64,000 nucleotides of DNA. It comes from Anaerotruncus massiliensis (ex Togo et al. 2026). GTDB lineage: Bacteria; Bacillota; Clostridia; Oscillospirales; Ruminococcaceae. Shown piece by piece: positions 53,319 to 63,956 of the stretch. The stretch is from positions 1,783,501-1,847,500 of the forward strand of contig NZ_LT962687.1 in NCBI RefSeq assembly GCF_900199635.1, in the 5' to 3' direction. The stretch's first letter is position 1. The number at the start of each line of letters is the position of its first letter. Below the pieces are notes generated by a model. It was given only the letters and a program-made list of their open reading frames with translations, made no database searches and was not told the origin of the DNA. The position numbers and the translations under genes are program-made.

Positions 53319-53364
53319 GCGCACGCCCCCGCCCCGGAAACTCCGGGACGGGGGCGCGTTTTTT
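53319..53364. terminator. Bidirectional terminator between yifB and the PTS operon
   Basis: A long GC stem (CGCCCCCG-CCCGG around AAACT, one mismatch) at 53324-53355 with TTTTTT on plus and AAAA on the far side; it overlaps the stop of the convergent HAD gene. Confidence 0.82.
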
Positions 53365-54187
53365 ACCCCACCGGGAAGAGGGCCCTGAGCGCGTGCGCGA
53401 GCGGGTCCCGCCCGCAGCGCGCGGTCACGCGCGCGCCCGGCAGCCTGCCCGAGATCGCCGAGCCCTCCGGCACGAAGGGATGCCCGCAGATTTCCAGCAT
53501 GGAAAGGTCGTTTTCCTCGTCCCCCAGCGCGAGGGTCCCCGCGAGGGAAAACCCCTCCCGGCGGCAGTATTCCCGCAGGGCCGCGCCCTTGGAAACGCCC
53601 GCGCCGCAGAGGTCGACGCAGCTTCCGCTCGACGAGACCAGCCGCACCCCCTCCATCCGGCCGGCGAGCGCCCGCAGCGCCTCCGCCGCCTCGGATGGAA
53701 CCCCCGGGAGCAGCAGGTCTGCGATCTCCCGCCCGCCGAAGTCCGCGCTGTCCCGGCAGTAAACCGGCTTATGGCGGAAACGGGACCCGCACCGCGAAAA
53801 ATGCACTTCGTAAAAATTTCCCGCCTCCCACGCGCCGGCCAGCAGGATCGCGTCGGCGGCATAGGCCGCGTAGGGCGCGCCGAGCCGGTCGAGCAGGCGG
53901 CAGGCCCGGTAGGCTTCCTCCCCGGGCATGTATTCGACCGCACGGTAGGCCCCGGCCGCAAAATCATAGACCGCCGCGCCGTTCATGCAGATGGCGGCGG
54001 GATGGCATCCCGCGAGACGGACCGGCCACTCCGCGATGTGGGGATGCCGCCCCGTGACGGCGATGACCCGGATCCCTGCGGCGGACAGCGCGCGGACGGC
54101 GGCGCGGTCCGCCTCCCCCGGCAATCCGTCGGGGCCGAGCAGCGTCCCGTCCAGGTCGGCCGCGACACATTCGAGTCCGCCGAACAC
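53363..54187 (-). CDS. Cof-type HAD phosphatase at the end of the PTS-psuG operon
   Basis: 274 residues from a GTG start, 6-7 bases after GGGAGG, which itself lies at the end of the preceding gene. Motifs: VAADLDGTLLGPDG (nucleophile Asp), VTGRHPHIAEW, a Lys in GVSKGAAL and the metal-binding ALGDEENDLSML. The C2 cap is that of Cof/YbiV-type sugar-phosphate or nucleotide phosphatases. By position it may dephosphorylate a product or overflow intermediate of the pathway (inference). Confidence 0.82.
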   Translation of the reverse strand: MFGGLECVAADLDGTLLGPDGLPGEADRAAVRALSAAGIRVIAVTGRHPHIAEWPVRLAGCHPAAICMNGAAVYDFAAGAYRAVEYMPGEEAYRACRLLDRLGAPYAAYAADAILLAGAWEAGNFYEVHFSRCGSRFRHKPVYCRDSADFGGREIADLLLPGVPSEAAEALRALAGRMEGVRLVSSSGSCVDLCGAGVSKGAALREYCRREGFSLAGTLALGDEENDLSMLEICGHPFVPEGSAISGRLPGARVTARCGRDPLAHALRALFPVG

Positions 54188-54191
54188 CCCC

Positions 54192-54731
54192 CTACCTCCC
54201 ATCCGCGGGAGCTTCCAGGCTCCCCGCGCGGCAGGGGGCACCGGACCCGCTCTCTTTTCCCGTCCCGGCCTCCCGTTCCTTTGCGCGCTGCTCGCGCCCG
54301 GCGTGCACCTGCGCGGCGCACGCCTCGTCGAGGATGCCTCCCGTCACCGTGATCCCCATCTCCGCGTAGCTTCCCGCCGTTTTCATGAGGAGCGCCGGGA
54401 AATCCGGCGCGGCGGAGCCGATGTAGATTTCCCGGATGCCCGCCTGCACCATCGCGGCCGCGCACATCGGGCAGGGCCGGTAGTTGCAGACGAGCAGGCA
54501 GTCCGACAGGTCGTTCCTCCCCAGCTTCGCGCAGGCCTCACGGATGAGCACCATCTCGGCGTGCGCGCAGGGGTTTCGTTCGGTATTTTCGCGGTTGCCG
54601 TCCCGCACGAGGACGCGGCCCTCCCGGTCGGCGATGACGCCGCCGTAGGGGTCGTCCCCCCGCGCGAGCGCGGCGGCCGCCTCCTCCATCGCCATGCGCA
54701 CGAGCGCCTCGGCCCGTTTTCGTCCGAGCAT
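54192..54731 (-). CDS. Zinc-dependent deaminase of the cytidine/guanine deaminase superfamily
   Basis: 179 residues. The zinc site is HAE (NPCAHAEMVLIREA) and PCPMC (NYRPCPMCAAAM), the proton-shuttling Glu being in HAE. The sequence resembles GuaD/TadA-type base or nucleoside deaminases more than CdaA, with a long, polar C-terminal tail. It overlaps the Enzyme I stop (TGATG). Lying in a nucleoside-phosphate pathway operon, it probably deaminates a base or nucleoside coming through it; substrate unproved. Confidence 0.82.
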   Translation of the reverse strand: MLGRKRAEALVRMAMEEAAAALARGDDPYGGVIADREGRVLVRDGNRENTERNPCAHAEMVLIREACAKLGRNDLSDCLLVCNYRPCPMCAAAMVQAGIREIYIGSAAPDFPALLMKTAGSYAEMGITVTGGILDEACAAQVHAGREQRAKEREAGTGKESGSGAPCRAGSLEAPADGR

Positions 54732-56395
54732 CACTCCACCTCCCCGAGCGCGCGGGCAAGCGTGGCCCGCGCCTCCTCCATATCGAGCGACCGGACCCGT
54801 TCGCGCGCCTCCGGCAGCGCGGCAGGCGACATCGAAAGCTCGGTGATTCCCATCGCGAGATAGAGCGGGATGAGCGCCGGGTCGGCGGCCGACTCGCCGC
54901 ACACCCCCGTCCAGACGCCGTTTTTCCGGGCGTTCTCCGCCGTCAGCTTCATGAGCCGCAGGACGGCCGGGTCCGCCGGGCGGTAGTACCCGGCGATCCG
55001 CTCGTTCATCCGGTCGGCGGCCAGCGTATACTGGGTGAGGTCGTTGGTGCCGATGCTGAAAAAGTCCGCCTCACGCGCGAGCAGGTCGCTGAGGACTGCC
55101 GCCGCGGGCGTCTCGATCATGACCCCGACCTCCACGGAAGCGGTCTCCGTCCCCTCCGTCTCAAGCTCCGCGCGCGCCTCCCCGAGCAGTTTCCGGGCGC
55201 AGCGCAGTTCCTGGAGGGAGGCGATCATCGGGAACATGACTGCGAGCCTTCCGTGGACGGAGGCGCGCAGCAGCGCGCGCAGCTGGGTCCGGAAGAGCTC
55301 CCGCCGGTCCAGACAAATGCGGATCGCCCGCCAGCCGAGCGCCGGATTTTCCTCCCGCCCCGTGTCGAGACAGGGGGCGCGCTTGTCCGAGCCGATGTCG
55401 ACGGTGCGCACAATCACCCGCCTGCCCTCCATCCGTTCGAGGGCCTCCCGGTAGGCGAGATACTGCGTCTCCTCGTCGGGCGGCGTCTCCCGCCCGAGGT
55501 AGAGAAACTCGCTGCGGAAAAGGCCCACCGCCTCCCCGCCGTTTTCCAGAACCACCCGCGCCTCCCCGGGCGCGCCGATGTTCCCGGCCAGCTCCACCCG
55601 GATTCCGCCGCGCGTTTCGGCGGGCGGGAACCCGCCGGCCCGCAGCCGCCCGAGGCGGCGCGCCGCCGCCCTCCGGCGGCTTCGCGCCTCCGAGAGCGCG
55701 GCCTCGTCCGGGTCGACCGTCACCCTGCCCGCGTCTCCGTCAACGGCCAGCAGCCTCCCCTCGAGCTCCGGGGCCGCCGCGATCCCCACGACGGCGGGGA
55801 TCCCCATCGCGCGGGCGAGGATGGACACATGGGAGGCCGCAGACCCGCGCCGGGTGACGAACCCCGCCACCTGCGAGCGGTCGAGCGAGAGGGTGTCGCT
55901 CGGGGTCAGCTCGTCCGCGACCAGCACGACGGGGCCGTCCGGCTCCCCCTCCCCGGAAAGCCCCCCTCCGCCGCCGAGCGCCGAAAGCAGCCGGCGGGAC
56001 ACGTCGCGGATATCCGCCGCGCGTTCGCGGATGTTGGGGTCCCCGAGCGCCTCGAACTCCGCCGCGAGGGCCTCCCCCGCACGGCGCACCGCCGTCTCCG
56101 CCGCCGCGCCCCCGTCGAGCTGCCGCTGGATTTCCCCGGTGAAATCCGGGTCGTCGAGCAGCAGCGCATGGATTTCAAAGATCTGCGCCTCCGCCTCACC
56201 GGCGGCTTCGACCGCCCGCTCCCGCAGGCCGCGCAGCTCCCGCCGGACGGCGTCGGCGGCCTCGCGGCATCGGCGCGCCTCCTCCCGCGCGCCTTTTCCG
56301 GGGATTTCCTCCTCCACCGCGGAGGGCGCGGCCAGCAGCCGTGCCCTCCCGACAGCGATTCCTCCGGAGGTTCCCGTTCCTTCCAGAATCTTCAT
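54731..56395 (-). CDS. ptsI: PTS Enzyme I (phosphoenolpyruvate-protein phosphotransferase)
   Basis: 554 residues. Takes phosphate from PEP onto its active-site His, which falls at position 189 as in E. coli (RRGSAASHVSILAR), and passes it to HPr. The PEP-binding barrel follows (GLFRSEFLYLGR, ENPALGWRAIR, GTNDLTQY, and the catalytic Cys in TGVCGESA). The His neighbourhood reads GSAASH rather than the common GGRTSH. Enzyme I is normally a central housekeeping gene; here it is inside an operon with one EII system. ATG is 6 bases from AAGGGAG. Confidence 0.93.
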   Translation of the reverse strand: MKILEGTGTSGGIAVGRARLLAAPSAVEEEIPGKGAREEARRCREAADAVRRELRGLRERAVEAAGEAEAQIFEIHALLLDDPDFTGEIQRQLDGGAAAETAVRRAGEALAAEFEALGDPNIRERAADIRDVSRRLLSALGGGGGLSGEGEPDGPVVLVADELTPSDTLSLDRSQVAGFVTRRGSAASHVSILARAMGIPAVVGIAAAPELEGRLLAVDGDAGRVTVDPDEAALSEARSRRRAAARRLGRLRAGGFPPAETRGGIRVELAGNIGAPGEARVVLENGGEAVGLFRSEFLYLGRETPPDEETQYLAYREALERMEGRRVIVRTVDIGSDKRAPCLDTGREENPALGWRAIRICLDRRELFRTQLRALLRASVHGRLAVMFPMIASLQELRCARKLLGEARAELETEGTETASVEVGVMIETPAAAVLSDLLAREADFFSIGTNDLTQYTLAADRMNERIAGYYRPADPAVLRLMKLTAENARKNGVWTGVCGESAADPALIPLYLAMGITELSMSPAALPEARERVRSLDMEEARATLARALGEVE

Positions 56396-56412
56396 GTTGT
56401 TCTCCCTTCCGC

Positions 56413-56670
56413 TCACAGGCTTTCGGTACAGAAGGCGCGCATCGCCTCACACGCGGCCTGCTCGTCCTCGCCGTCCACCGTGAAGGTCACCGTCTCCCCC
56501 GCCGCCGCGCAGAGGGCCATCACCCGCAGCAGGCGGGTGCAGTCGGCCTCCCGGTCCCCCCGGCGGATGGTCACCCGGCTTTTGAAGGCCGCCGCCTGCC
56601 TGACGAGCTGTCCGGCCGGCCGGGCGTGCAGGCCCATCGGGTCGCTGATCGTATAGTCAAACTGCTGCAT
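56413..56670 (-). CDS. PTS phosphocarrier HPr, Ser46 replaced
   Basis: 85 residues. His15 sits in MGLHARPAG, at exactly the E. coli and B. subtilis position. The regulatory site, Ser46 in low-GC Gram-positives, is Arg (TRLLRVMAL in place of KSIMGVMSL), so HPr kinase could not phosphorylate it and it should not serve CcpA-type catabolite control. This fits an HPr dedicated to transport. ATG 56670 is chosen over the GTG four codons upstream; 25 bases after psuG, 17 before Enzyme I. Confidence 0.9.
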   Translation of the reverse strand: MQQFDYTISDPMGLHARPAGQLVRQAAAFKSRVTIRRGDREADCTRLLRVMALCAAAGETVTFTVDGEDEQAACEAMRAFCTESL

Positions 56671-56695
56671 AAAGCCCCTCACAAACCCCTTCCGC

Positions 56696-57628
56696 TCACA
56701 GCGCGTGGTATTCCCGCGCGATGACCGCCGCGACGCGCGCGTTATTGCGGATGATTTCCACGTTGGCCGCGAGGCTCGCGCCCCCGGTCAGCTCATTGAC
56801 TTTGGAGAGCAGGAACGGCGTGTTCTTTTCGCCCGCGATCCCCTCCTCCTTCGCCATCTCGACCGCCCGGGCGATCGCCGCGTCGATGACCTCCTCCGCG
56901 ATCGCGAACCGTTCGGGGATCGGGTTTGAGAGGATCGCCGCGCCCTCGAAGCCCAGCTCCCACTTCGCCTTGAGAAACCGGGCCACCATATGGTAGTCGT
57001 CGATCCGGTAGTCGATGCGATACCGGCTGTGCGGGGTGAAGAAGGCGGGGAAGGAATCGGTGCCCATGCCGATGACGGGCACGTCCTTGGTTTCGAGGTA
57101 CTCCTTGGTGCGGCCGATGTCGAGGATCGACTTGCAGCCCGCGCTGATGACCCCGACGCTCGTGCGGCCGAACTCCTCGAGGTCGGCGGAGACGTCCATC
57201 GACAGCTCCCCGCCCTTGCTGACCCCGCCGATGCCTCCGGTCGCCATGAACCGGATGCCCGCGATCGACGCGCACCGCAAGATCGCCGCGATCGTGAAGC
57301 CCGCGTTGAGCCCGTTCACGATGGCGTAGGGGATGCCCTTGACCGACGCCTTCATCGCCCTGGAGGCGGGGTCCGCCGGGTTGTTGGCGAGCGCGCCGAC
57401 CTGTTCCCGGTCGAGCCCCACGACGATCTTCCCCTTGTAAACGCCGATGGTCGCGGGCACCGCGCCGTACTCCCGCACCGTCTCCTCCGCCATGAGGGCG
57501 GTCTCGACGTTGGTCGGGTAGGGCATGCCGTGCGAGATGATCGAGCTTTCAAGCGCGACGACCGGCTCGCCGTTTTGGACCGCCTCCCGCACGCGGGGGG
57601 CGACGGTCAGATATGGTTCGATATTCAT
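56696..57628 (-). CDS. psuG: Pseudouridine-5'-phosphate glycosidase
   Basis: 310 residues, the usual length. It shows the family opening VVALESSIISHGMPYPTNVE, the VGLDREQVGAL region, and GGIGGVSKGGELSMDVSADL (as GGIGGVSKGG). PsuG reversibly cleaves the C-C bond of pseudouridine-5'-phosphate to uracil and ribose-5-phosphate (established for E. coli YeiN). Normally a kinase, PsuK, supplies the phosphate ester; none is here. The gene sits between PTS IID and HPr, so the PTS may make the phosphorylated substrate during uptake (inference). Confidence 0.94.
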   Translation of the reverse strand: MNIEPYLTVAPRVREAVQNGEPVVALESSIISHGMPYPTNVETALMAEETVREYGAVPATIGVYKGKIVVGLDREQVGALANNPADPASRAMKASVKGIPYAIVNGLNAGFTIAAILRCASIAGIRFMATGGIGGVSKGGELSMDVSADLEEFGRTSVGVISAGCKSILDIGRTKEYLETKDVPVIGMGTDSFPAFFTPHSRYRIDYRIDDYHMVARFLKAKWELGFEGAAILSNPIPERFAIAEEVIDAAIARAVEMAKEEGIAGEKNTPFLLSKVNELTGGASLAANVEIIRNNARVAAVIAREYHAL

Positions 57629-57648
57629 TCGTCAGCTTCTCCTTCTCA

Positions 57649-58488
57649 TTATATAATGTGCAGCAGGCTGAGCGCCACGACGCCCACCGCAAGGATTCCC
57701 ATGATCTTGATCGCGCCCTTGCCCTTCTTGACCAGCCAGAAGCAGACGAGCGTCACCGCGAGCGGGAGCATCTTGGGCATGAGCTGGTCGAGGAAATCGG
57801 CCTGCAGGCTGATGGCCTGCTCGCCGCTGCCGTAGGTGAGGGTGGTGGACAGGCTCACATAGGTGGCGGTCAGCGCGCCGAGCACGCCGCATCCGACGAT
57901 GCCCGCCGCGTGGACGATGCGGTCCATGAGCCCGCCCTTCAGGATTTTGGAGACCGCGTCCTTGCCGAGGCGGTAGCCGTAGTTGACGAAATAGATGCTC
58001 TGGGCGGCCATGGCCGCGACGACGAGTACGCAGTAGATGACGACGCCCGCGACGCCGAGGTTGTTTTCCAGCACGAGCGCGACGGAGAAGGCGAGCAGGA
58101 TGGGGTAGATGATCGCCTGGTTGAGGGTGTCGCCGATGCCCGCCAGCGGGCCCATGAGGCCGGTCTTGACCGCGGTGATCGCCTCGCCCGAGACGCTGCC
58201 GTCCTTGGCGCGCTGTTCCTCCATCGCCACGCTGATGCCCATGATGACGATGCCGATGTAGGGCTCGGTGTTGAAGAACTCCTGATGCCGCTCGAGCGCC
58301 TCGCTCAGGTCCTCCTTGGAGGGGTAGAGTTTGGCGAGGATGTGGCTGATCGCGTTGGTGAAGCCGAGGCTCTCAAACCGCTCGTAGTTGATGCAGCAGT
58401 GGGAAAAAATGAACCACTTAAACCAGGCGTAAAGCAGGTCCTTTTTAGTGACGATCGACTGGACGACGCCGGTTTTCTCCTTTGCCAT
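57649..58488 (-). CDS. PTS mannose-family transporter subunit IID
   Basis: 279 residues. Recognised by KWFIFSHCCINYERFESLGF (as SHCCINYERF), GLMGPLAGIGDTLNQAIIYP (as GPLAGIGDTL), and C-terminal membrane segments. IID and IIC form the membrane translocator that carries the substrate while IIB phosphorylates it. It starts on the base after the IIC stop, with GGAGG 8 bases upstream. Confidence 0.95.
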   Translation of the reverse strand: MAKEKTGVVQSIVTKKDLLYAWFKWFIFSHCCINYERFESLGFTNAISHILAKLYPSKEDLSEALERHQEFFNTEPYIGIVIMGISVAMEEQRAKDGSVSGEAITAVKTGLMGPLAGIGDTLNQAIIYPILLAFSVALVLENNLGVAGVVIYCVLVVAAMAAQSIYFVNYGYRLGKDAVSKILKGGLMDRIVHAAGIVGCGVLGALTATYVSLSTTLTYGSGEQAISLQADFLDQLMPKMLPLAVTLVCFWLVKKGKGAIKIMGILAVGVVALSLLHII

Positions 58489-59232
58489 TTAAGCCACCTC
58501 CGCTTTCTGCATGTCGTTGAAGAGATAGAGCGCCGCCGCCGCGATCGCGAAGGCCGCCACGCCCATCATCGTCATGCCCAGGTAGGACACGAGGAAAAAG
58601 CCCATGAAGAAATAGGGCGCCACGCTCTTTTTCATGATCACCTTGAGGTTGAGCGCGATGCCGACCGCCGGGAGCACGCCGCCGATGAGGGTGAGGATGC
58701 CGAGCACGCGGGTGCCGAGGAAATCGAGCGCGCTCTGGACGAACTCGGGCCCGAAGTAGGCGGCGAGCGCGACGGGCAGCACGGTCATGAGCAGCAGGAC
58801 CGGCTGCGGATAGAGCACGTTCACCCGCCAGATGCCGCGGGTGTTCGCCTCGCGGGTGGGCTTGTCCGCCATGTGGGAGATGACGACGTTGAAGGTGTTG
58901 CGTCCGACCCACACGAAGGTGCCCAGCATGCCGAGCGGGACCGACAGGGTGAGCGCGACGCCCGTGTCGAGATTGGAGGCGATGGCCAGCGCCGTGGCCA
59001 GCGTCCCGGCGAGCGCCGGGTCGGAGGGCTGGGAGCCGCCGACCGACATCCAGCCCAGGTAGATCAGCTGGATGGTCGCGCCCATGATCGCGCCCTCCGC
59101 AGGCGCGCCGAGGATGCAGCCGACCAGCGTGCCGGCGACGAGCGGCTTGCAGACGGTGAGGTAGCCGATGGCCCACGGCGCGCTCCCCAGGTAGTAGACG
59201 ACCCCGATCAGAATCGCTTGCAGAACAGTCAT
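58489..59232 (-). CDS. PTS mannose-family transporter subunit IIC
   Basis: 247 residues, largely hydrophobic with about seven to eight segments; AILIGVVYYLGSAPWAIGYL and PAEGAIMGATIQLIYLGWM are diagnostic regions (motifs APWAIGYL and IQLIYLGWMS). It forms the substrate channel with IID. ATG 59232 is 7 bases from GGAGG; the frame's earlier ATG has no ribosome site. 13 bases follow the IIB stop. Confidence 0.94.
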   Translation of the reverse strand: MTVLQAILIGVVYYLGSAPWAIGYLTVCKPLVAGTLVGCILGAPAEGAIMGATIQLIYLGWMSVGGSQPSDPALAGTLATALAIASNLDTGVALTLSVPLGMLGTFVWVGRNTFNVVISHMADKPTREANTRGIWRVNVLYPQPVLLLMTVLPVALAAYFGPEFVQSALDFLGTRVLGILTLIGGVLPAVGIALNLKVIMKKSVAPYFFMGFFLVSYLGMTMMGVAAFAIAAAALYLFNDMQKAEVA

Positions 59233-59245
59233 TGTCCTTCCTCCT

Positions 59246-59719
59246 CTATAACACTTTGTCGATTTCCATTTCCTTGTCCTCCGGCACCACCTGCACATAG
59301 ACGCGCACGCCGCGCTTCTGCAGGCGCAGGAGGGTCTCGTTCTCCGCCGGGGAGGAGGAGATGTTGCGGTAGAGGGTCGACCGGCCCGCGCGCTTGCACA
59401 TGCCGCCCACGTTGAGCGCGCGGATCTCGACGCCGCGGTCCACGAGCGCCTCCACCGTTTCGGGCACCTTCACCAGCATGAGGATGCGTTCCTCCCCCGC
59501 CTCCTGCAGCAGGTATTCCGCCGCCCTGTCCACATCGGCCACCACGGCCTTGAACTCCTTGGGCACCGCCATCAGCAGCACCTCGGTCATAAACGAATCC
59601 CGGCAGGTCTCGTCGTCGACCACCATGATCTCGGTCGGGCTGTAAAGCCGCGACCACTGGGTCATGATCTGCCCGTGGATGAGCCGGTCGTCGATCCGCA
59701 CCAATACGATATTTTTCAT
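59246..59719 (-). CDS. PTS mannose-family subunit IIB
   Basis: 157 residues. Active-site His15 in RIDDRLIHGQI accepts phosphate from IIA and passes it to the incoming substrate. VDDETCRDSFM and VPETVEALVDRGVEIRALNVGGM (as RALNVGGM) match the family. ATG 59719 is 7 bases from GGGGAGG. Confidence 0.95.
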   Translation of the reverse strand: MKNIVLVRIDDRLIHGQIMTQWSRLYSPTEIMVVDDETCRDSFMTEVLLMAVPKEFKAVVADVDRAAEYLLQEAGEERILMLVKVPETVEALVDRGVEIRALNVGGMCKRAGRSTLYRNISSSPAENETLLRLQKRGVRVYVQVVPEDKEMEIDKVL

Positions 59720-59732
59720 CTGCCTTCCTCCC

Positions 59733-60128
59733 CTACTGGTAAATTTCACGCAGGTTCCGGATCGACTCCCGCGCCGATTCGAGCGCGGCGTCCCGGATTT
59801 CGGCCGCGGTGCGGCCCTCCCGCATCGAGATCGCCTCGATGAGCATCGCGAGGTTCGCCCCGCTCACGCACTCGTACCCGAGGCCGCGGATGTTGCGGGC
59901 CGCCACGTTGCAGGGGGTCCCCGCGTACATGTCGGCCAGCACGAGCACGCCGCTGCCGTCGTCAAGCGCGCGCACCCGGCTGCAAAACCGCTCGTTGAAG
60001 GCGTCCATATCCACGCCCGGCTCGAGCGAAACCGCCTCGACCCGCTCGCTCTTCCCGGCGATCAGCTCGCTGGCTCTGACCATCGCCTCCGCCAGCCCCC
60101 CGTGGGACACCACCAGTATTCCAACCAT
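59733..60128 (-). CDS. PTS mannose-family subunit IIA
   Basis: 131 residues, a separate IIA as in fructose/sorbose-type systems rather than the fused IIAB of E. coli ManX. His9 (VVSHGGLAE) receives phosphate from HPr. LADMYAGTPCNVAARN and SGANLAMLIEA are family motifs. It starts 21 bases after the regulator's stop, with no terminator between, so regulator and transporter are co-transcribed. Confidence 0.95.
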   Translation of the reverse strand: MVGILVVSHGGLAEAMVRASELIAGKSERVEAVSLEPGVDMDAFNERFCSRVRALDDGSGVLVLADMYAGTPCNVAARNIRGLGYECVSGANLAMLIEAISMREGRTAAEIRDAALESARESIRNLREIYQ

Positions 60129-60149
60129 ACCCGTTCTTCCTTTCTTTTG

Positions 60150-62876
60150 TCAGTCCTCGTAATCCAGCGCGACGAGCTGGTAGATGTAAGCGATCTCGCT
60201 GACGGGGATTTCCACCGCGTAGTGGCTCGTCAGGAAGTGGAACGCCTCCTTGACCTGCGCCACGAACCGCTCTTTCTCCCGCAGGAACCCCTCCGTCTCG
60301 GGATACTGTTCGATGGGGGTCCGGGTGATCAGCCGCTCGATCAGGCAGCTGATGTGGATGTAGAGCGCGATGGTCACCCGGTTGCTGAACCGCTTGCCGG
60401 TGATGCCGCGCAGCCGGGTCACCGCCTCCTGCACGTACCCCATCAGCTTTTCGGGGTTGAGGATGGTGAGGTGCTTGACCACGTTGAGCAGCGAAAAATC
60501 CTTGAGCAGGTTCTTGTTGAAGGCGTCGAGCTCGGCCGCGTCGAGCCCGCCCGACAGCGCCGCGTCGATCCTGCCGAGCCCCTCCGCCGTGATCATGTCG
60601 CCGATCGCCAAAAAGGGGATGCCCTCGAAGCCGGGGTCCATCGCGCCGATCAGCAGCTTCACGTCGTACCGCCCAAACAGCTCGTCCTCCTCGCGGCTCT
60701 GGATCAGCCGGTAGTAGTCATAGGCGATCACCGCCGTTTCGATCGGGCGCGGCAGGCTGCCGCTGAAAAGGTCGATCATCCGTTCGGCCACGCCGGTGTC
60801 GGCGTCGCTCATAAAGACGACCGCCTCCTGCTTGCGCCGGCTGGCGAGCACCCGGCAGCCGGGCGCCGCGTCCCCGCAGGCGCTCTTGAGGATCGTGCCG
60901 ATCTCCTGCCCGCTCCAGATGCCCCTGCCGACCGCAAGCGCCAGCGCGGTGGAGACGTTGTCCGCCAGCCCGAGCCGGATGTTCGCGATCCCGCCCACCC
61001 CCTCGCCGACCGCCTCCATCGACCCGGTGTCGAAGAGCAGGATGAACGCCCGGCACGTCGGCCGCCTGCGGATGTACTTCCCCAGCCGCACCGCGAGGTC
61101 CGCCTCGCCGGCGTTCACCGGCAGGTCGATCGCGTCGAAGGTGTGCCGCCCGATCAGCTTGTTGACCGTCTCGGCCATGCTGCTGGCCGTGGCGTAGCCG
61201 CGGCAGGCGATCACGCCGCGGATGGCGCTCACCTGCACTCCCTTGTTGCTGTACTTGATGTTGAGCGCCAGCAGCAGCAGATCCATCTTGGAGATGCGCA
61301 GGTCCATGTTCTGCCCGATGAGCTCGGACGCCTCGAGCGCGATGGTCATCTCCCCGGGCGAGGTCCTCCGCAGCGTCCCCAGCGCGCCTTCCAACTCGGC
61401 GTCCCGCCGCTCCAGCCACCGCTGGAGGGTGAGGTTGCGCTGCATCTGGGCGTGGAGCCCGCGCGATATGAGGAACCCGCAGTGGACGGGGAGCACGGCG
61501 TGGTACTTCTCCGACACGGCCTCCAGCACCCCGTCCACCACCTGCTTGATCGCGTTGAACCGGCTGTTGGTGTGCTTTTTATCGAAGTAGAGGTAGTCCA
61601 TAAAGCTGTTGATATAGGCGTAGCAGCGCTCGAACACGCCGCCGAGCGACGCCTCCTCCCCCGCCTGCCGGGCAAAGCACCCAAGGATCGAATCGTAAAA
61701 GCGCACGAAGATGTCCACCGCGTCCAGCTTCTCGTACTCGTTGATGCTGATGAGGCTCTCCTGCTCGTTCTCGGCGGCAGGGTCCGCGCGGGAGGCCGCC
61801 AGAATCTCCTCCGGCAGGTGGTACTGGTAGACGTAGAGGCTTTCCGCGTCCGCGTCGCTGTAGAGGAAGGCGTTGGCGCAGCAGCTGCGCACGCAGTTTT
61901 TGAGCTGCGCGACGTTCCCCGCGTAGACATAGTCCATCATCCGGTGGAAAACGCTCGTGCCGATAAAGATCTTGCGCCCGTTTTTGCGGGCCTCCCGCTT
62001 GAAGAAATAGAGCAGCAGTTCCTTTTTCTCCTCGGGGGTGCGCTCCTCAAGCGGCGGGACGCTCACCGAAACGGGGATCAGGCGCTGCAGCGCCCGGTCG
62101 AGCGCGCGCCCCGGCTCGGCGGAAACGGTGAAGACGAGGCGGACGTCCGCCGTACGCACGGCGTCCTCCCCGCAGCGGGAATAGCGCCCGGTCTGCATGA
62201 ACTGTAAGAGCCTCTCCTGGCACTCGCTTCCGAGGGCTCCCGCCTCGTCGAGCAGCAGCATCCCGCCGTCCGCGGCGGCAAGGCAGCCGGGGGCGTCCCC
62301 CCGGCGCACGTCGCCGAAAATCTGGGCGAGCGCCTCCCCGTCGCTGCGGTATTCGGCGCAGCCGGCGGCGACCAGCCGCCCGGGCGGCAGCACCCCCTCG
62401 TCCGCCGCGTACTCGTACATCAGCCGCGCGAGCAGCTTTTTGCCGGTCCCGGGCTGTCCCGCCAGCAGCACCGGCAGGCCGTGGGGCGGATATTTCACCG
62501 CCGCCTTGAGCTGCTCGATGCAGTCGCTGATGCTGCGCGTGCTGCCAATCGCCTTTTGAAAATTGCGCAGCCGGTTTTTTTCACGGTTCAGGTGCGCCGC
62601 CAGCTCCCGCAGGCTGTCGAAGGCGGGCTGGGCGACCGTCGCGTCGTACTGCGCCTCGAGCATCCCCTTGTGGAAGAAGTAGACCGGGCGCAGGTTCGCT
62701 TTGACGAGCAGCCCGTCCTTGACAAGCTCATTGAGATACTGGCTTGTAAGGTTCCTGCTGACGTTCAGCCGGGCGCTGATGGCCGACGCGGTGAACCGCT
62801 CCGGCTCCTCTCCCCGGAAGCCGTCGGTCAGTCCCTTGATGTATTCCAGCAGTTCCTCTTTTGTTTTGACAAACAT
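60150..62876 (-). CDS. LevR-like PTS-controlled AAA+ transcriptional regulator, GAFTGA loop missing
   Basis: 908 residues with the LevR layout: N-terminal winged helix (about 25-75, ISARLNVSRNLTSQYL), AAA+ domain (about 110-340; Walker A GQPGTGKK, Walker B GGMLLLDEAG), PRD1 (about 395-500), an EIIA-mannose-like domain (about 560-690) and C-terminal PRD2 (HISCLIERL). Between the Walker motifs, where sigma-54 activators carry GAFTGA, it reads GDVRRGDAPGCLAAADGG. The EIIA active site is CRGYATASSM, with Arg in place of His. It should still sense PTS state through its PRDs, but is probably not a sigma-54 activator. Confidence 0.9.
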   Translation of the reverse strand: MFVKTKEELLEYIKGLTDGFRGEEPERFTASAISARLNVSRNLTSQYLNELVKDGLLVKANLRPVYFFHKGMLEAQYDATVAQPAFDSLRELAAHLNREKNRLRNFQKAIGSTRSISDCIEQLKAAVKYPPHGLPVLLAGQPGTGKKLLARLMYEYAADEGVLPPGRLVAAGCAEYRSDGEALAQIFGDVRRGDAPGCLAAADGGMLLLDEAGALGSECQERLLQFMQTGRYSRCGEDAVRTADVRLVFTVSAEPGRALDRALQRLIPVSVSVPPLEERTPEEKKELLLYFFKREARKNGRKIFIGTSVFHRMMDYVYAGNVAQLKNCVRSCCANAFLYSDADAESLYVYQYHLPEEILAASRADPAAENEQESLISINEYEKLDAVDIFVRFYDSILGCFARQAGEEASLGGVFERCYAYINSFMDYLYFDKKHTNSRFNAIKQVVDGVLEAVSEKYHAVLPVHCGFLISRGLHAQMQRNLTLQRWLERRDAELEGALGTLRRTSPGEMTIALEASELIGQNMDLRISKMDLLLLALNIKYSNKGVQVSAIRGVIACRGYATASSMAETVNKLIGRHTFDAIDLPVNAGEADLAVRLGKYIRRRPTCRAFILLFDTGSMEAVGEGVGGIANIRLGLADNVSTALALAVGRGIWSGQEIGTILKSACGDAAPGCRVLASRRKQEAVVFMSDADTGVAERMIDLFSGSLPRPIETAVIAYDYYRLIQSREEDELFGRYDVKLLIGAMDPGFEGIPFLAIGDMITAEGLGRIDAALSGGLDAAELDAFNKNLLKDFSLLNVVKHLTILNPEKLMGYVQEAVTRLRGITGKRFSNRVTIALYIHISCLIERLITRTPIEQYPETEGFLREKERFVAQVKEAFHFLTSHYAVEIPVSEIAYIYQLVALDYED

Positions 62877-62899: not shown

Positions 62900-62928
62900 A
62901 TCATAACCCCGCGCCCCGGGCGCGTAAA
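62900..62928 (-). promoter_or_regulatory. Sigma-A-like promoter of the LevR-PTS-psuG operon
   Basis: Minus strand: TTTACG, 17-base spacer, TATGAT. The spacer is almost wholly the palindrome CGCGCCC-C-GGGCGCG (62910-62924), a possible operator for the GntR protein or the LevR-like protein. No -24/-12 sigma-54 element is visible. Confidence 0.65.
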
Positions 62929-63224: not shown

Positions 63225-63956
63225 TTATAAGCGGAAGTTGATATCGTAATCCTCGGGCAGGAAGTAGAACTTGCAGCGGGCGATCCCCTCCTTCTGGGAA
63301 CCGTAGAGGATCTCCTCGATGTAGATGATCGGCGTCTCGTTCTCCACCTGCAAAAAGGCGGTGACGTTGTCCTCCGCGGGGACGACCTTGAAGGAGAGCT
63401 CGGCGGAACTCGCCAGCTCGAAAATCCTCCGGTTGACCAGCGCGTAGGCCTCGTCCTCGTTGTTGAGGTCGACGTCGAGCTCGTTGACATACCGCACGGG
63501 GATCTGCACGAACGAATGCCCGATCGGGCGGCCGCCCGAATAGTAGACGTTGTTGCTCGCCATGACGATCTCGCTGACGCGGATGCCCAGCCGGTGCTGG
63601 GCGATCTCGGTGGGCGGGCCGTAGTTATAGGAGATCTTGATCTCGGTGATCTCCCGGCGCGCGCATTCGATGACCGGGTTCACGATCCGGCTGGCGGGCG
63701 CGCCACGCCCGGGGTCGTAGGTGATGAAGGTCCCCTTGCCCTGCTGCTTCGCGATGAGGTGGTCCTCATTGAGGATGGTCAGCGCCTGCCGTAGCGTGTT
63801 GCGGCTGACCCCGTACTTTTCGGCGAGCACCGGCTCGCTCGGCAGCTGGGAGCCGTTTTTGTAGACGCCGTCGACGATGTCGGAGTAGATCTGGTTGTAG
63901 ATCGAAACATAGGAAGGGATTTTGTTGTCGTTGAGGCTTGTGATCTTCTTATTCAT
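63225..63956 (-). CDS. GntR-family (HutC/UTRA) transcriptional regulator
   Basis: 243 residues: N-terminal winged helix (about 12-78, PSYVSIYNQIYSDIVDG; LPSEPVLAEKYGVSRNTLRQAL, given as GVSRNTLRQAL) and a C-terminal UTRA ligand domain (about 90-240) of the kind that binds sugar phosphates or small acids. It lies immediately upstream of the PTS-psuG operon on the same strand, so it probably represses it until a pathway intermediate appears (inference). The ATG is 9 bases from AAAGGA. Confidence 0.9.
   Translation of the reverse strand: MNKKITSLNDNKIPSYVSIYNQIYSDIVDGVYKNGSQLPSEPVLAEKYGVSRNTLRQALTILNEDHLIAKQQGKGTFITYDPGRGAPASRIVNPVIECARREITEIKISYNYGPPTEIAQHRLGIRVSEIVMASNNVYYSGGRPIGHSFVQIPVRYVNELDVDLNNEDEAYALVNRRIFELASSAELSFKVVPAEDNVTAFLQVENETPIIYIEEILYGSQKEGIARCKFYFLPEDYDINFRL

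Follow-up and report, generated by a model that had tools for sequence, protein, structure and literature searches.

The window analyzed in this study is a stretch of 64,000 nucleotides (nt) from the 3.15-Mb genome of Anaerotruncus massiliensis (contig NZ_LT962687.1, positions 1,783,501 to 1,847,500; G000:C7:1783501-1847500 in our coordinates). It contains a run of ten genes on the minus strand (53363-62876), in which a psuG-family gene is embedded in a phosphotransferase system (PTS) of the mannose family. A preliminary description of this DNA had listed IIA to IID, HPr, Enzyme I, psuG, a deaminase, a HAD phosphatase and a LevR-like regulator in one run. All ten frames are open, and each was assigned to a family by profile search, which confirmed this gene content in full. 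The features are as follows.

60150..62876, minus strand: LevR/DgaR-like PTS-controlled regulator with helix-turn-helix, AAA+ and PRD domains (Sigma54_activat and PRD profiles)
59733..60128, minus strand: mannose-family IIA, phospho-His kept (profile search and comparison with E. coli K-12)
59246..59719, minus strand: mannose/sorbose-family IIB, His of DDRLIHGQ kept, inner ATG start (profile and K-12 comparison)
58489..59232, minus strand: mannose/sorbose-family IIC, inner ATG start (profile search)
57649..58488, minus strand: mannose-family IID (profile search)
56696..57628, minus strand: PsuG-family C-glycosidase, placed in a divergent clade (PF04227, 375.7 bits)
56413..56670, minus strand: HPr, ATG start, His15 kept (profile and K-12 comparison)
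54731..56395, minus strand: PTS Enzyme I, ATG start, active His and Cys kept (profile and K-12 comparison)
54192..54731, minus strand: zinc deaminase of the cytidine deaminase fold, TadA/GuaD-like (PF00383)
53363..54202, minus strand: Cof-type HAD phosphatase, ATG start, assigned by family only (PF08282)
62900..62928, minus strand: weak sigma-70-like promoter match (9/12) just upstream of the regulator; five such matches occur in 15 kb, against 1.5 expected

With the start codons that we chose from the open frames (inner ATGs for IIB, IIC, HPr, Enzyme I and the HAD gene), the intergenic gaps in run order are 21, 13, 13, 0, 20, 25, and 17 nt. The last junctions are overlaps, of 1 nt between the Enzyme I and deaminase genes and of 11 nt between the deaminase and HAD genes. 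The ten genes thus make up a single compact run and are presumably transcribed together. No dehydrogenase, isomerase, aldolase or kinase was found among the ten genes by family search.

PTS proteins and related loci

In alignments with the E. coli K-12 proteins, the residues that we take to be the phosphorylation sites of Enzyme I (His, Cys), HPr, IIA, and IIB are all intact. Three matches to the Enzyme I N-domain were found in the genome, including the window copy and one in a short frame of 263 amino acids, together with five HPr-family matches, the window copy again included. The Enzyme I and HPr of the run are thus extra copies. The window IID is the sole IID of the genome at E<=1e-20, and its nearest relatives among 391 genomes of the class are four proteins at 43-47% identity.

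Thirteen related PTS loci were examined, comprising 12 of the 29 non-self IID matches from two genome samples (L165-L176) and one of 341 plasmid records (L163). Only L163 was annotated, and the neighboring genes were mostly identified by reading the sequence. A zinc dehydrogenase match lies within 7 kb of the IID gene at ten of these loci; of the other three, L167 and L168 carry transketolase-like genes and L170 carries other genes. The best-ranked plasmid relative, L163 (L. salivarius pMP118), has its PTS together with rpe, fsa, and tkt. An Enzyme I match is found nearby in five loci (L169, L172, L173, L174, L175), indicating that a PTS with its own Enzyme I is a recurrent arrangement, and PsuG was found in none of the 13. 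The motif GDTxxQ is present in the window IID and in seven of the loci (L163, L165-L168, L171, L176); ManZ has GDPIFW. The nearest IID relatives (L163 and L165-L169, 37-47% identity) resemble the window run in the LevR-like regulator of L165-L168 and in the dedicated Enzyme I and HPr of L169, but differ from it in their dehydrogenase, aldolase, transketolase or epimerase genes, in the lack of PsuG and, for L169, in an IID motif that reads GDPLWQ. We call this group polyol-type, a label of our own drawn from the neighboring genes. In chemical terms, a C-nucleoside is an anhydro-ribitol substituted at position 1, so a PTS of the pentitol type would be a reasonable ancestor. A mannose-type PTS for ribitol has been reported in L. 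casei (Bourand 2013, as cited in PMC6717177).

The PsuG variant and the deaminase

The window PsuG has the Indigoidine_A/PsuG fold, with 375.7 bits against a curated cut-off of 25.2, and its best solved relative is E. coli PsuG (E 1.7e-87). The AlphaFold model is consistent with this fold (mean pLDDT score 88.8), with a poor segment at residues 141-150 (55). Glu31, Asp149, Lys166, and Asn289 (E. coli numbering) are retained in the alignment, Asp149 being presumably catalytic. In E. coli YeiN, Lys166 forms the Schiff base, Asn289 bonds O2 of uracil, and Glu31 is catalytic, according to PMC7722734. Three other conserved positions are altered in the window protein, namely D98G, T111F, and H137S. 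In an alignment of 84 rows (72 distinct), D98 is kept in 82 rows, T111 in 81, and H137 in 71; 13 rows in all lack H137, and G98, F111, and S137 are found only in the window PsuG and in that of one other locus, L046. AlnA (u62236) retains D, T, and H at positions 98, 111, and 137.

The comparison set consisted of 55 other psuG loci, 41 of them found by searching named genomes for relatives of the window PsuG and 14 further ones, including four in the A. massiliensis genome itself. The window proteins were compared with these loci by tblastn (E<=1e-3); some of the loci are short stretches, the smallest spanning 4 kb. In the named-genome scan, the nearest relative of the window PsuG is L046, at 70% identity, with all others at 48% or less. 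The best further matches reach 51% among 395 other genomes of the family and 52% among 397 other genomes of the phylum, both samples having been drawn evenly from larger groups. A tree of 73 rows, the bootstrap of which was not fully settled, pairs the window PsuG with that of L046 (100/100). The stem of this pair measures 0.99 changes per column, and the other four PsuG proteins of this genome lie elsewhere in the tree. By alignment and tree, the window PsuG is a member of a divergent clade with L046. Divergent PsuG-family proteins were also seen in two relatives (L039 in G082 and L040 in G071); their frames are open, and they lack the catalytic lysine in the alignment.

The deaminase contains HAE and PCxxC, which we assume to be the zinc motif of such enzymes. 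It scores below the cut-off of the TadA equivalog model of NCBIfam (57.2 vs. 150 bits), and its nearest solved relatives are TadA and guanine, guanosine, and cytosine deaminases. This deaminase type is rare: it was found in none of 390 other genomes of the class at E<=1e-25 (391 searched, the A. massiliensis genome included). Among plasmids, 139 records matched, all at less than 60% identity, and 138 of them cover less than 80% of the protein. Of the 55 psuG loci, only L046 contains the deaminase, apart from a weak match (27%) on the opposite strand near psuG in L063.

L046 belongs to Clostridia bacterium MS499-83 (BNUG01000053.1) and has two copies of the deaminase type, 55% and 53% identical to that of the window. 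It differs from the window run in having a BMP-like ABC transporter in place of the PTS. Its other neighbors are short-chain dehydrogenase/reductase (SDR), zinc dehydrogenase, isomerase-like, FGGY kinase, and MtaA-like genes, all below NCBIfam cut-offs. The PsuG and deaminase types have thus been kept together in two genomes despite different transporters, suggesting that they serve a common substrate, the base of which would bear an amino group. Methylated bases, at which the MtaA-like gene of L046 hinted, were considered as substrates and dropped as unsupported.

Regulator and transcriptional control

The regulator combines an AAA+ domain with a C-terminal PRD (Pfam finds one PRD). Its Walker motifs are intact, and it retains two PRD histidines that align with those of its relatives. 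It lacks the GAFTGA loop, which is present in all six compared relatives (in one as GSFTGA), and in its IIA-like segment an R stands where the six relatives have H. Its score against the NCBIfam DagR model is below the cut-off (321.2 vs. 1400 bits). No -24/-12 (sigma-54) site with two or fewer mismatches was found upstream of the regulator, and a sigma-54 promoter at this place was rejected; the whole window holds 17 matches, against 38 expected. In the genome, sigma-54 (rpoN) gave one match (C7:896461-896709), which scores 23.2 bits (cut-off 22.8) and contains one internal stop. Control of the operon is therefore predicted to be independent of sigma-54, and the regulator is possibly a sigma-54 activator that was re-wired after the loss of sigma-54.

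Proposed function of the operon

No other sugar-processing enzyme is encoded in the run, so the product of the PTS most plausibly goes to PsuG. Since psuG lies inside an intact PTS operon without a kinase, it is simplest to assume that the PTS itself delivers the 5'-phosphate. The preliminary description had suggested that the PTS hands a 5'-phosphate directly to PsuG, and this idea gains support from the complete PTS, from the lack of a kinase or another sugar-catabolic enzyme, and from the precedent of the Gfr system. It is thus likely that the PTS would supply a PsuG-type enzyme. As for the substrate, we lean toward phosphoenolpyruvate (PEP)-driven uptake and cleavage of a ribose C-glycoside other than plain pseudouridine, and consider this nearly as probable as its contrary. 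A fuller version is put forward more tentatively, namely that a mannose-family PTS with polyol-type kin has been re-aimed at an amino-bearing C-riboside, that the glycosidase belongs to a new subfamily of PsuG with a dedicated deaminase, and that group translocation replaces a nucleoside transporter and a kinase.

In the proposed pathway, the phosphate of PEP would travel from the operon's own Enzyme I and HPr via IIA and IIB, and IIC/IID would import the C-riboside, phosphorylating its primary (5') hydroxyl on entry. The PsuG variant would then form a Schiff base via Lys166 and split the C-C bond to give ribose-5-phosphate and the base. The zinc deaminase would take the amino group off the base or the nucleoside, and the HAD enzyme might remove surplus sugar phosphate. 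The LevR-like protein would use its PRD histidines to sense PTS traffic and would act independently of sigma-54. These fluxes are all predicted from gene content.

The run can be compared with two known systems. Like psuK-psuG-psuT (yeiC-yeiN-yeiM) of E. coli, it has a PsuG-family C-glycosidase with a Schiff-base lysine, and its proposed purpose is to take up and cleave a C-nucleoside. It differs in that a PTS replaces the kinase and the CNT transporter, the PsuG belongs to another clade, and a deaminase and a HAD enzyme are added. In the Gfr system, fructoselysine and glucoselysine enter through GfrABCD, which phosphorylates them, and the resulting 6-phosphates are split by the deglycases GfrE and GfrF (PMC4987338 and PMC12675984). 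As far as the available descriptions go, gfrABCDEF and dgaABCDEF of Salmonella resemble the window run in having a mannose-family PTS for an unusual substrate, dedicated phosphate-processing enzymes (splitting, in the case of Gfr), and a LevR-like regulator. However, they are sigma-54 dependent, Gfr acts on hexose adducts with deglycases where the window has a C-glycosidase, and the parts of those sources that we had make no mention of a dedicated Enzyme I or HPr. No deglycase of the GfrE/GfrF type is present among the ten genes, and the likeness to Gfr is one of logic only.

No nucleoside PTS is named in the open-licence literature that was searched, which was covered mostly at abstract level and is weak evidence of absence. 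The parts belong to known families, and the combination is new as far as that literature goes. If the proposed pathway is correct, the range of the PTS, which includes sugars, polyols, and amino-sugar relatives, would extend to nucleoside-like molecules, and transport would be merged with the kinase step. It would also imply that this branch of PsuG handles another base, and suggest that some amino-bearing C-riboside has gone unrecognized as a nutrient.

Conservation of the PTS-psuG linkage

Several results weigh against the proposed pathway. The preliminary description had called for a search for conserved IIABCD-psuG neighborhoods, and none emerged: no match to IIA, IIB, IIC or IID was found by tblastn in any of the 55 other psuG loci, and no such neighborhood occurs elsewhere among 149 genomes. 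PsuG is present in 28 of these genomes (the A. massiliensis genome included) and IID (E<=1e-20) in 11. Three have both, and the two genes are adjacent only in A. massiliensis, lying on different contigs in G082 and separated by about 50 kb in G087. The PTS-psuG linkage is thus seen in one genome only, and such a lack of conservation had been named in advance as counter-evidence. In the IID tree, the grouping of the window PTS is weakly supported (83/89), and the window row falls in no well-supported set. The alterations at D98, T111, and H137 are known by alignment, and their contact with the base is putative. The solved relatives of the deaminase act on tRNA adenosine, guanine, guanosine or cytosine, and the enzyme could serve ordinary bases. 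At L046, psuG is accompanied by BMP-like ABC genes and an FGGY kinase gene, with no PfkB match; these ABC genes take the place of the PTS, so the PsuG clade has no need of one. The NCBIfam models that fit the ABC proteins best are those of a putative vitamin B6 transporter, in each case with a score below cut-off, so the cargo at L046 is itself uncertain.

In L078, one of the 55 psuG loci, Enzyme I and HPr lie about 5.5-7 kb from psuG on the opposite strand, without any EII. Among plasmids, 66 records matched psuG, and the three that were examined were rejected as PTS partners: the E. coli record, with psuK-psuG-CNT, and the Salmonella record, with psuK-psuG, both lack a PTS in the stretch examined, and the Vibrio gene lies among unrelated genes. 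The E. coli record (L161, NZ_CP063342.1) is an IncHI1A-type plasmid on which psuK, psuG, and the CNT transporter gene are located near insertion sequence elements.

Alternative explanations

The preliminary description had named pseudouridine as the candidate substrate, such that the PTS would import free pseudouridine and PsuG would cleave pseudouridine-5'-phosphate to uracil and ribose-5-phosphate. The clear family membership of PsuG, its conserved Lys166, Glu31, and uracil-bonding Asn289, and the lack of a kinase within the operon are consistent with this. However, the genome is already well supplied with genes of this kind. It holds five PsuG-family genes, of which that of the window has the lowest score (375 vs. 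431-447 bits), and the other genomes among the 28 with PsuG have at most two. The four other loci, all on C7, contain a BMP-type binding protein, ABC genes, a PsuK-like kinase, and psuG (L087, near 710 kb); ABC genes, a BMP protein, a GntR regulator, and psuG (L088, near 1149 kb); a PsuK-like kinase, a ribose-type ABC set, psuG, a nucleoside phosphorylase, and a PfkB kinase (L089, near 1327 kb); and ABC genes, SDR genes, psuG, and a PfkB kinase (L090, near 2604 kb). Pfam confirmed both BMP proteins, the L089 binding protein, the L090 permease, and the L089 phosphorylase; the kinases were identified by profile search and the rest by reading the sequence. The ABC genes at all four loci were classed, partly in this way, as being of the BMP or the ribose type.

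The earlier statement that no PsuK is encoded here holds for the operon and fails for the genome, in which two PsuK-like PfkB genes were found, at C7:709818 (adjoining another psuG) and at C7:1322919. The two kinases (L004 and L008) are each 35% identical to K-12 PsuK, and 41% and 37% identical, respectively, to YeiI. PfkB kinases usually have GAGD at a characteristic motif; the PsuK-like kinase at L089:3743-4861 reads GARD there, and may be altered or inactive. A psuK gene together with a nucleoside transporter elsewhere, which had been regarded in advance as counter-evidence to PTS-driven uptake, was found in part, in the form of the PsuK-like kinases and of four psuG genes with ABC genes. 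Such kinases and ABC loci are compatible with a separate PTS route.

For pseudouridine itself, the classical equipment is thus already present at L087, the window PsuG is the lowest-scoring of the five and has altered residues common only to L046, and uracil requires no deaminase. Together with the rarity of the deaminase and the two PsuK-like kinases, these findings fail to support the earlier choice of substrate. Plain pseudouridine is one option and a doubtful one, and we consider its uptake by this PTS unlikely.

It is also conceivable that the PTS is an ordinary one for a pentitol, pentose or hexose, with psuG, the deaminase, and the HAD gene as passengers that have separate duties. Most of the related loci carry dehydrogenase, transketolase, epimerase or aldolase genes (mostly read from the sequence), and five of the 13 have their own Enzyme I, both of which favor this reading. 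However, psuG is located between the IID and HPr genes with gaps of only 20 and 25 nt, and the dehydrogenase of ten of the 13 loci is missing from the window run, so that a passenger role for these genes appears improbable.

The operon might, finally, run in reverse, a PTS-imported pentose 5-phosphate being joined to a base by PsuG, the product dephosphorylated by the HAD enzyme, and the base finished by the deaminase to give a C-nucleoside, much as in minimycin biosynthesis. YeiN catalyzes the joining direction, linking pentose 5-phosphates with uracil and some analogues including 6-aminouracil (adenine and guanine were inactive; PMC7722734). For minimycin, a YeiN-like enzyme termed a C-glycosynthase (MinB) is paired with MinC, which has a HAD phosphatase domain; that pathway differs in being a biosynthetic one with a nonribosomal peptide synthetase, and no PTS is named in the parts of its descriptions that we had. 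A base-making enzyme and an exporter are absent among the ten genes, a PTS-sensing regulator suits catabolism, and the sister locus L046 adjoins import-type ABC genes, all of which make the reverse reading very improbable.

Neighboring genes

No structured RNA was detected within 53-64 kb at Rfam gathering scores. The GntR gene at 63225-63956 was excluded from the operon, as it is separated from the upstream end of the run by a gap of 348 nt. Past the right end of the window, upstream of the GntR gene, L189:4802-8842 contains an S-adenosylmethionine (SAM) hydroxide adenosyltransferase gene beside genes of an energy-coupling factor (ECF) transporter (CbiQ, ATPases, and an S component), and this group may be concerned with adenosine.

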